Virus record (IMG/VR): IMGVR_UViG_3300042010_000041
Coordinates: 1-23,233 of that record
Reading direction: 5' to 3' (one strand)
From: a virus
Length of the DNA: 23,233 bases
A program made the position numbers and the translations under genes. Shown one piece after another: positions 15,713 through 19,888 of the stretch; positions within the stretch are counted from its first letter, which is position 1, and each line of letters opens with the position of its first letter. The notes under the pieces are model-generated. The model was not told the origin of the DNA, did not search any database, and saw nothing but the letters and a program-made list of their open reading frames with translations.

Positions 15713-16221
15713 AGTCAACAGAATTCCTACAGGCAGCAATCGACGTTCAGGCTGAGCGCGGGGTTACATACGACAAACCTACAGGCGAGCGCTCCATGGG
15801 TGCCACTGTAACGGCCTTCAACGCCATCACAGGGCGCGATATGTCCGAGGCTGAGGGATGGTTGCTGCTTCAGACTCTGAAGGACGTGCGGCAGTGGCAG
15901 AACCCTAGCAAGTATCACCATGACTCCGCACTTGACGGCGTGGCTTACTCGGCGCTTAAGGCTGAGGCGCTGAGTGAGGAGCAGGTATTAGATCCTTCAC
16001 ATGCAATTTCGGATTTGCCAGATGGTTATCACTGGGATGATGCGCCTGAAGACTTTGAGTGGATGGCAACCGATAGAGAAGGTGCTTTTTGGTTTCGGCA
16101 CGAGCCGGAAGTTGGAATCGCTGGAAAAACATGGGCGTGGCAAACGGCCGGCTGCAAAACTATTGATACAGATGAAAAGAAGATGGAAAAATACCAGCGC
16201 CCAACGAGCACAGCCCAATGA
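15709..16221 (+). CDS. DUF6378-like phage protein (170 aa)
   Basis: The N-terminal 90 residues match the pattern of DUF6378 proteins: an FLQAAIDVQAERGVTYDKP segment, GERSMGATVTAFNAITGRDM, EAEGWLLLQTLKDVRQWQ and SALDGVAYSALKAEA. The remaining part (about 100-170), with DGYHWDDAPEDFEWMATDRE, is a separate acidic, Trp-rich domain. The family is frequent in phages and its function is unknown. It overlaps the phosphoesterase gene at its stop. Confidence 0.78.
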   Translation: MKSTEFLQAAIDVQAERGVTYDKPTGERSMGATVTAFNAITGRDMSEAEGWLLLQTLKDVRQWQNPSKYHHDSALDGVAYSALKAEALSEEQVLDPSHAISDLPDGYHWDDAPEDFEWMATDREGAFWFRHEPEVGIAGKTWAWQTAGCKTIDTDEKKMEKYQRPTSTAQ

Positions 16222-18799: not shown

Positions 18800-19017
18800 T
18801 GACCACAATCAACGACCTAGACCAAATCAACACAATGGCGATGATGACCATGTGCGAGCTTGGGTATGCGCGGTATGAGCGGTTTCGTGCTGGACTAAAG
18901 ATGGATGATGAGGCTTGCGAGAAGCTGAGGCAGTTTATTCATTCCAACGCTGATCGCGAGCATGAGCTAGAACTACGAATTAAATGCGCACCGATGTACA
19001 AACCTATGGCATACTGA
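18799..19017 (+). CDS. Hypothetical protein (72 aa)
   Basis: Helical protein: MTTINDLDQINTMAMMTMCE, LGYARYERFRAGLKMDDEAC, and a C-terminal helix with NADREHELELRIK. It shares a base with the previous stop. It is the last gene before the gene-free stretch at 19018-19561. Confidence 0.65.
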   Translation: MTTINDLDQINTMAMMTMCELGYARYERFRAGLKMDDEACEKLRQFIHSNADREHELELRIKCAPMYKPMAY

Positions 19018-19057
19018 TTGCCAGCGGTGACTCCCCTCCCATCGCTGTTACACTTTT

Positions 19058-19091
19058 TGCCAGTCGTGAACCGTCCGACTGGCATTTTTTT
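19058..19091 (+). terminator. Strong rho-independent terminator after the accessory genes
   Basis: TGCCAGTCG (19058-19066), 9-base loop, CGACTGGCA (19076-19084), then seven T. It is the strongest-looking terminator in the window and separates early from late transcription. Confidence 0.92.
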
Positions 19092-19109
19092 GCGCGTTTT
19101 TACGCAAAA
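19088..19109 (+). repeat. AT-rich hairpin after the early terminator
   Basis: TTTTGCG (19088-19094) pairs with CGCAAAA (19103-19109) around an 8-base loop. It overlaps the T-run of the preceding terminator and could strengthen it on the opposite strand. Confidence 0.4.
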
Positions 19110-19138
19110 CAGGCAGAATATGTGCAGTTTTATGCATG

Positions 19139-19147
19139 TGGTATCAT
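19139..19147 (+). promoter_or_regulatory. Extended -10 promoter for the putative leader RNA
   Basis: TGGTATCAT, an extended -10 element without a clear -35. It sits between two terminators, so transcription from here would make an RNA of about 290 nt ending at 19444. Confidence 0.45.
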
Positions 19148-19153
19148 TCTCGC

Positions 19154-19446
19154 TCCTGTCGCAGTACTCAGGAAACCCCGGCGAGATAGAGTACGGATTG
19201 ACTCGGCGTAGGGTGAGACGCAGGTGATGTAATACGGATCTTACGTTCATACGCGGCGTAAGACGCTGACGAGTAGCCGAGGATGTTCAGCCATTACGTT
19301 AGATTCAAGGGCCGACTACGAGAGCGGTGCAAGTCTAGCGGATCTACGAAATGATGTAGCTCTTGAAGCGCTGAAATACGGATTGGGAGATGATACCCGG
19401 TCGAAATGTAGTACTAGCCCAGCCTTAAAGAAGCTGGGCTTTTTAT
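19154..19446 (+). ncRNA. Putative structured leader / noncoding RNA before the holin
   Basis: Promoter-like element upstream, strong terminator at the end, no ORF, and several stems: GTACTC/GAGTAC (19164-19169 with 19189-19194), GCGT/ACGC (19206 with 19218), TCTTACG/CGTAAGA (19239-19245 with 19257-19263), GCTGA/TCAGC (19265 with 19287), CGAGAGC/GCTCTTG (19319 with 19359), and GATTGGG/CCCGGTC with two G-U pairs (19381 with 19396). TACGGAT occurs three times (19192, 19233, 19377). It resembles the pR'-tR' leader of lambda in position, but no homologous sequence is recognised. The ends are approximate. Confidence 0.5.
19416..19444 (+). terminator. Rho-independent terminator of the leader RNA
   Basis: AGCCCAGC (19416-19423), 9-base loop, GCTGGGCT (19433-19440), TTTTATT. 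It lies 118 bases before the holin start, so readthrough or antitermination is needed for the late genes unless the element at 19511 is a promoter. Confidence 0.9.
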
Positions 19447-19481
19447 TGCCAGTAGCTCGGTAATTCCGAACAACTGAAAAA

Positions 19482-19491
19482 GTGATATCAC
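19482..19491. repeat. 10-bp palindrome GTGATATCAC
   Basis: Perfect palindrome in the non-coding stretch before the holin. It could be a protein-binding site or part of a packaging site, but nothing beyond symmetry supports this. Confidence 0.35.
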
Positions 19492-19510
19492 AAAGCCATG
19501 GAACCACAAC

Positions 19511-19519
19511 TGATACAAT
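19511..19519 (+). promoter_or_regulatory. Extended -10 before the holin gene
   Basis: TGATACAAT matches an extended -10 well, with no good -35 at the right distance. It could start the holin-terminase transcript about 40 bases before the holin ATG. Confidence 0.4.
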
Positions 19520-19561
19520 TGGTTCAAATGGATTACATTCCACTAATCAGACCCATCAACG

Positions 19562-19888
19562 ATGAAGAAGCCAATGAGCGACCCTACCGGCGATCCAAAC
19601 GTACTAGCGCAACTGTGGGCATCTATTCCGGAGCCTATCAAGGCCGCAATCATGAACGTAGCACTCAGCACGGTAATGGCGTTTCGTAATAGTGAGCGAA
19701 CATTCTGGACGTCGTTCTGGGAGGTTAGCGCAGGTGGTATTATCACCTTCATGGCCGGCTCAGCAGTAGAGGCATTCGGACTGTCTAACGGCTGGTGTTT
19801 CGCAATTGGTGGCGCCGTCGCAGTCTTCGGCATCGATCAGGTTAAAGCCTTCGCTGCTAGATTCGCGGAAAAGAAAGCTAGCGAATAG
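19562..19888 (+). CDS. Lambda S-family holin with dual-start motif
   Basis: Protein of 108 aa with three hydrophobic segments: about residues 28-43 (IKAAIMNVALSTVMAF), 52-74 (VSAGGIITFMAGSAVEAFG) and 77-94 (GWCFAIGGAVAVFGID). The tail VKAFAARFAEKKASE resembles the lambda S end. It begins MKKPMSDPTGD. Like lambda S (MKM), two starts (19562 and 19574) would give a longer, two-lysine antiholin and a shorter holin. GAAGAAG is present just before the second ATG. It forms lesions in the inner membrane that release the endolysin. It lies next to terminase, about 19 kb from the endolysin in the window's coordinates. Confidence 0.82.
   Translation: MKKPMSDPTGDPNVLAQLWASIPEPIKAAIMNVALSTVMAFRNSERTFWTSFWEVSAGGIITFMAGSAVEAFGLSNGWCFAIGGAVAVFGIDQVKAFAARFAEKKASE

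Follow-up and report, generated by a model that had tools for sequence, protein, structure and literature searches.

What occupies the boundary between the early and late genes of this phage, where the initial annotation saw no open reading frame (ORF) and proposed a structured RNA? The DNA analysed here (the window) is a 23,233-base record of a bacterial virus, a 23-kb contig fragment. Its early genes encode replication proteins, a NinI-like phosphatase, RusA and an exonuclease, and are followed by the holin and the small and large terminases; the closest relatives of the helicase occur in mixed phages, several of them from Pseudomonas. The last small ORF ends at 19017 and the holin gene begins at 19562. 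Between them lie, in order, terminator 1, promoter P1, the RNA, terminator 2, a palindrome and promoter P2. The non-coding unit (19139–19447) combines an extended −10 promoter, an RNA of approximately 290 nt and a strong intrinsic terminator, and the RNA has the architecture B-E-C-D-T2. The features are as follows.

19059–19091, plus strand: terminator 1, end of the early operon; stem GCCAGTCG/CGACTGGC, 9-nt loop, T7 ATTTTTTT.
19139–19147, plus strand: promoter P1, extended −10 TGGTATCAT, a consensus motif; predicted start near 19154.
19155–19224, plus strand: RNA domain B; closing helix CCUG(u)CG/CGCAGG, inner helix GUACUC (19164–19169)/GAGUAC, stem CUC/GAG.
19192–19198, plus strand: TACGGAT copy 1, inside domain B.
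19233–19239, plus strand: TACGGAT copy 2, at the seam of B and E.
19236–19351, plus strand: RNA domain E; hairpin P1 CUUACGUU/GGCGUAAG, P2 GCUGA/UCAGC, P4 CGUUAGAUU/AGUCUAGCG, possible pseudoknot GUAG/CUAC.
19356–19376, plus strand: RNA segment C, GUAGCUCUUGAAGCGCUGAAA; recurs behind A, B or E in relatives.
19377–19383, plus strand: TACGGAT copy 3, at the seam of C and D.
19380–19403, plus strand: RNA hairpin D, GAUUGGG-loop-CCCGGUC; fold z −2.13.
19416–19447, plus strand: terminator 2, exchangeable, type T2; 8-bp stem AGCCCAGC/GCTGGGCT, 9-nt loop, T5; fold z −2.82.
19482–19491, strand not applicable: palindromic sequence GTGATATCAC, candidate operator, near −40 of P2.
19511–19519, plus strand: promoter P2 of the holin/terminase operon, extended −10 TGATACAAT, a consensus motif.
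19562–19888, plus strand: holin gene (lambda S family), the landmark of the locus (Pfam PF05106, 3.8e-11; phrog_126, 6.2e-16).

Four chance ORFs (69–103 amino acids) overlap the RNA, and stops, frameshifts or lost synteny break them in relatives, so that the description of the stretch as free of ORFs holds. ARAGORN and RF00005 detected no tRNA or tmRNA in the window, and a DNA search of the window region against phages returned no match.

Both promoters and both terminators are consensus calls made from the sequence. The position of the extended −10 of P1 predicts a transcript start near 19154, at the first base of the first RNA domain, and a regular-expression search recovered the motif in 32 distinct loci (TGTTATCAT in 12, TGGTATCAT in 10, TGATATCAT in 5, others in the remainder), bearing out the extended −10 originally read at the start of the stretch. 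The two terminators between which the RNA had been placed, with a strong one at its end, are likewise present. The module of terminator 1 ('t') stands at the same place in most relatives, with variants of the stem, and the place of terminator 2 holds T1, T2 or T3 (others are unnamed). An automated terminator scan missed both, presumably because it accepts loops of up to 8 nt and theirs measure 9 nt. At the place of P2, the motif TGNTANNNT was found in 40 of 40 distinct loci. The palindrome upstream of it, where a late activator or repressor may bind, has the form GTGATATCA in 30 of the 40 loci, and other alleles replace it elsewhere. Small ORFs with a common leader (TTGACGCGCAATCCTGGCAGGCGTAGATT...) lie between the RNA terminator and P2 in seven loci (L004, L006, L013, L016, L020, L029 and L103); this insertion place before P2 is a moron site, unused in the window.

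The initial annotation counted at least six stems in the RNA. Single-sequence folding lends this no support for the stretch as a whole, which folds no better than shuffled sequences (z −0.57), nor do domains B and E alone give a signal over shuffles; hairpin D and terminator 2 do fold better than shuffles. Comparison among relatives sustains several individual stems, namely the invariant closing helix of B and its helix B2, P1, P2 and P4 of E with the possible pseudoknot, D, and terminator 2. In domain B (13 variants), three pairs of the inner helix are compensated (GUACUC/GAGUAC, GCAUGC/GCAUGC and GCACGU/GCGUGC), a comparison that comprises only about three independent helix alleles; the domain-B model R1 detects the B of the window at E 5e-23, as it must by construction. 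In domain E, CUUACG/CGUAAG of P1 changes to CUUGCG/CGCAAG and to CACAC/GUGUG, GCUGA/UCAGC of P2 changes to GCUGC/GCAGC, and P4 is retained despite sequence changes, all among eight variants of which few are independent. The invariant GUAG/CUAC segments of E would form the possible pseudoknot. A pattern scan of viral contigs for domain E returned mostly unrelated matches, many of them within regularly spaced repeats.

The three TACGGAT repeats first noted in the stretch were found at 19192, 19233 and 19377, that is, three copies within 200 nt on the plus strand against 1.7 expected for the whole window on both strands. The short common sequence at the B/E and C/D seams may aid recombination. 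Titration of CsrA/RsmA through the GGA motifs of the ACGGAU repeats was considered and set aside, as several GGA sit in paired stems. A hammerhead ribozyme in domain E was rejected: the letters CUGACGA...GAAA are present, but one relative (L012) has CUGCCGA without GAAA, and there is no Rfam match.

Relatives were collected with a small-terminase query (46 viral loci) and a holin query (27 viral loci). When positions 19000–19600 were compared with them by blastn, the matches were broken, with some parts of the RNA 90–98% identical and the next part unrelated. Reading of the regions and mapping of reference modules resolve the RNA region into discrete domains combined as a mosaic, with constant flanks on either side. 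From left to right it comprises terminator 1, P1, a subset of I, A, B, F/J, E, C/H, D/G and K, and a terminator T1, T2 or T3, followed in some loci by a small ORF with its own leader, then by P2 and the holin. The 35 tabulated loci represent 28 architectures, ranging in length from no RNA to more than 600 nt. The order of the domains is fixed: 24 unique orders (terminators left out) contain no inversion, compared with a mean of 19.5 and a minimum of 9 after shuffling, although this conservation partly reflects the common ancestry of close relatives. It may be functional, or may be inherited from an ancestor with a longer RNA. No single domain occurs in every locus. One relative has no RNA, with P1 fused straight to the P2 region (L040), another has P1 and a bare terminator only (L043), a third has C as its sole RNA domain (L021), and in a fourth an ORF replaces the RNA (L008). 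The relatives are close kin from a limited set of metagenomes, and some of the apparent exchange of domains could be due to assembly error, although several architectures recur across independent contigs or metagenomes (L006/L007 and L039/L042/L068/L071).

These comparisons suggest that the stretch is probably an independent accessory RNA gene, an 'RNA moron', located where the early operon gives way to the late one. Transcription would start at P1, run for approximately 290 nt and stop at terminator 2, and the late genes would start separately at P2. The RNA would consist of consecutive domains, a number of which have a closing helix of their own, and phages would gain, lose and exchange these domains through recombination at their edges.

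The edge of such a domain is sharpest in domain A, a 50-nt unit that is absent from the window and common in its relatives. Over 21 loci, the majority fraction is 1.00 through the last base of the closing helix and 0.43, 0.38 and 0.38 at the next three bases, and this drop in conservation directly after the helix indicates that domain A ends at its own helix. Among 17 variants, 97.9% of cells are paired and 7 of 14 pairs have changed on both sides; none of 500 shuffles was as good in these pairing measures, and sliding controls were far lower. The core (GACAAUGCCAGC...CCUGAAA...AGCUU) is nearly invariant, and the outer helix differs among phage groups. Covariation analysis on homologous regions, the check proposed at the outset, thus yielded compensatory base changes in A, B and E. 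Together with the conserved flanking promoter motif and terminators, the covariation supports the initial suggestion that the early-late junction holds a new structured RNA.

The properties of domain A also bear on the idea that the RNA is a base-pairing small RNA (sRNA) or sponge for host or phage mRNAs or sRNAs, comparable to the anti-sRNAs of E. coli prophages, with the domains as structural dress. Prophages carry the sRNAs AgvB and AsxR and the Pas sRNAs, several of them near holin or lysozyme genes (PMC13192938), and the size and U-tailed terminator of the RNA described here are compatible with such a role. However, those are single sRNAs with seed regions, whereas this RNA is a mosaic whose domain cores are structured and, in the case of the A core, near-invariant rather than open seeds, and domain A is exchanged at a helix boundary. 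We regard this explanation as unlikely.

Domain A extends well beyond the relatives of the window. Exact-pattern scans found it in a second phage group (L109, L110, L112, L114, L122, L133, L135, L149, L153, L156, L158 and L293) and in one further phage (L291). It is also present in the cultured Pseudomonas phage MR14 (L273), with a model score of 60.6 bits that includes MR14 in the underlying alignment. Genome scans covering 84,980 species gave no true match. In the loci of the second group that were read, A lies in an RNA region of approximately 0.5–1 kb with a terminator at its end, followed by the holin or other late genes, and in L135 NinG/HNH genes lie upstream. Hairpin D recurs in the relatives of the window and, in the second, Pseudomonas-type group, often comes after A, as it does in those relatives. 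Some RNA regions of the second group hold tRNAs or tRNA-like sequences, including degenerate tRNAs. Helix-closed hypervariable inserts were observed within a conserved RNA frame in L112, L133, L135, L153, L114 and L156. In MR14, a tRNA-like sequence (positions 60–180 of L273; RF00005, 30.9 bits) sits in a long perfect helix adjoining domain A.

The RNAs of the second group also contain a covarying, cloverleaf-like module, M, which has a closing helix and two hairpins, with a hypervariable arm of 38–79 nt between the hairpins; in L112, this arm holds a tRNA-like sequence. A scan extracted at least 100 distinct frames. Pairing was computed on 35 of them: 95.4% of cells are paired, both sides have changed in 14 of the 23 pairs, and none of 500 shuffles did as well. 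The hairpin loops GCUGAU and AUCAGC/U are complementary, and we propose that they may form a loop-loop contact recalling that of the D-loop and T-loop in tRNA; the invariance of the loops is no evidence for it, since the search pattern preset all but one of the paired loop letters. Adjoining module M is a further conserved segment, X, which is also found in Felixounavirus phages.

15876–16012 of the HK620 record (L422): conserved RNA segment X (GATAAATGCAAACGA...GGTAAGAGCATT), beside M; also in L425 and L426.

HK620 carries M and X behind Q, pR' and a first terminator; the annotated tQ terminator and the holin come after them. In D3, KP591P3, IME11 and ZC03, M has tRNA genes around it or sits in non-coding DNA rich in tRNAs, and linked modules are also found in tRNA-rich parts of N4-like phages, which are not known for lambda-type late control. 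Modules M and X are unannotated in most of the matches listed, and Rfam 15 contains none of the modules. At gathering and relaxed thresholds, Rfam searches gave only tRNAs, an IS1222 frameshift element and chance matches, and in the RNA regions themselves they matched no family other than tRNA. No earlier description was found in the open-access literature.

The company of tRNAs raises the question of whether these regions are the remains of decaying tRNA or RNA arrays, kept by drift and shuffled by illegitimate recombination, with no present function. The tRNA-like inserts, the degenerate tRNAs of linked phages and the wide variation in presence and size of the RNA would fit such decay. Drift is nevertheless hard to reconcile with compensatory changes that preserve helices, with an A core that is near-invariant across different phage groups, and with the retention of promoter and terminator motifs, and we consider this account very improbable.

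HK620 bears on a different explanation, raised by the initial annotation, in which the RNA or a part of it (B, D) is a cis-acting antitermination leader: polymerase that has left P1 would be modified by it and pass terminator 2 to transcribe the late operon. The put RNA of HK022 and the action of Q at pR' are precedents for antitermination. The parallel drawn with the lambda pR'-tR' leader (6S RNA) is apt as to position: both loci have the order terminator, RNA, terminator, holin, and the related RNA of HK620 lies within a Q-controlled late region. The earlier remark that no Q gene is visible also stands for this fragment, as none of the 29 ORFs compared with PHROGs matches an antiterminator family; the contig is incomplete and a distant Q is possible, and no N was found either. 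Hairpin D often adjoins terminators, both in these RNAs and in capsid mRNAs, where it sits between the stop codon of a capsid-like gene and a terminator, right next to both (six contigs, L414 and L417–L421).

Unlike the lambdoid leader, however, the locus is a mosaic RNA followed by a holin promoter motif of its own. The occurrence of that motif in every one of the loci compared, together with the relatives devoid of the RNA or reduced to a bare terminator, makes an obligatory put- or Q-like leader unlikely, and loss of the RNA as in L040, L043, L021 and L008 is not expected of a leader needed for antitermination. The want of a domain present in all loci also speaks against one, as does the occurrence of linked modules in N4-like phages. 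The more specific suggestion of a put-type RNA fares no better. The put RNA of HK022 is a short structured RNA of about 70 nt with two stem-loops, located downstream of a phage promoter (PMC9378689), a size close to that of domain B. In the 24.0–40.75 kb region of HK022, where put is expected (it is unannotated in the record), the domain-B model found no match and only chance matches of 10–13 nt were seen; the gap between Q and the holin in HK022 also lacks these modules. Antitermination in cis is therefore an unlikely function for this RNA.

The accessory RNA gene that we favour instead has its nearest counterparts among the large structured RNAs GOLLD and ROOL of phages and prophages, whose function is not known and which often lie near tRNA islands (PMC12286853). 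GOLLD has a conserved 3' part and a variable 5' part, sometimes with internal tRNAs (PMC12286853), and L112 and L135 have a similar layout: their 3' side holds A and D, their 5' part varies, and tRNAs or tRNA-like sequences lie within them. The RNA described here differs in being shorter and in having exchangeable domains. The Rfam models of GOLLD and ROOL gave nothing above the gathering score in the window and its relatives, and nothing relevant at E≤5 in 19000–19560. Phage tRNA arrays offer a second likeness, as accessory RNA cargo of varying content in or beside which M and X occur, although the window itself is without tRNA. Closed, covarying domains in varying combination place the locus in a class of domain-mosaic phage RNAs; the window lacks A and M, and its tie to the wider class consists of D (24 nt) and of the relatives that carry A.

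As an accessory gene product, the RNA would be made, stable, released from the template and trans-acting. It may serve, through its several domains, as a decoy or scaffold that captures host proteins of RNA processing, tRNA targeting or other RNA binding late in infection, a suggestion that is doubtful and offered as a guess. Domain combinations would then shift under selection, as do the tRNA sets of phage tRNA arrays. Such capture of host proteins, whether they bind RNA, target tRNA or serve defence, would explain why domains are exchanged, why tRNAs and tRNA-like inserts keep them company, and why both temperate and virulent phages carry them. An assembly like that of GOLLD or ROOL, a homo-oligomeric RNA cage, would be a comparable alternative. 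The broadest reading, which we put forward tentatively and at somewhat less than even confidence, is that of a categorically new kind of phage gene, an RNA evolving by domain shuffling. Its self-folding domains (A, B, E, M, X and others) would come from a common pool that extends across enterobacterial and Pseudomonas phages, temperate and virulent, and the RNA would act in trans as a decoy, scaffold or RNA particle. It would have escaped annotation even though hundreds of sequenced phages, and E. coli prophages, contain parts of it.

Non-coding RNAs are usually viewed as single families that vary through point mutation and insertion. The RNA gene described here looks instead to be built like a mosaic protein, with closed domains and swaps at helix edges. 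Module M is present in 182 and segment X in 635 of 50,697 phage records (a few of the M matches are chance matches of the variable arm), mostly unannotated and absent from Rfam 15, and a large class of phage RNAs has thus apparently been overlooked. HK620-type sequence occurs in 156 of 5,426 complete E. coli genomes and is unannotated in the matches listed; 11 of these genomes contain most of the query and the majority only part of it. This makes the class testable in laboratory strains. Such a class would add candidates for RNA-based counter-defence, or for RNA assemblies beside GOLLD and ROOL.
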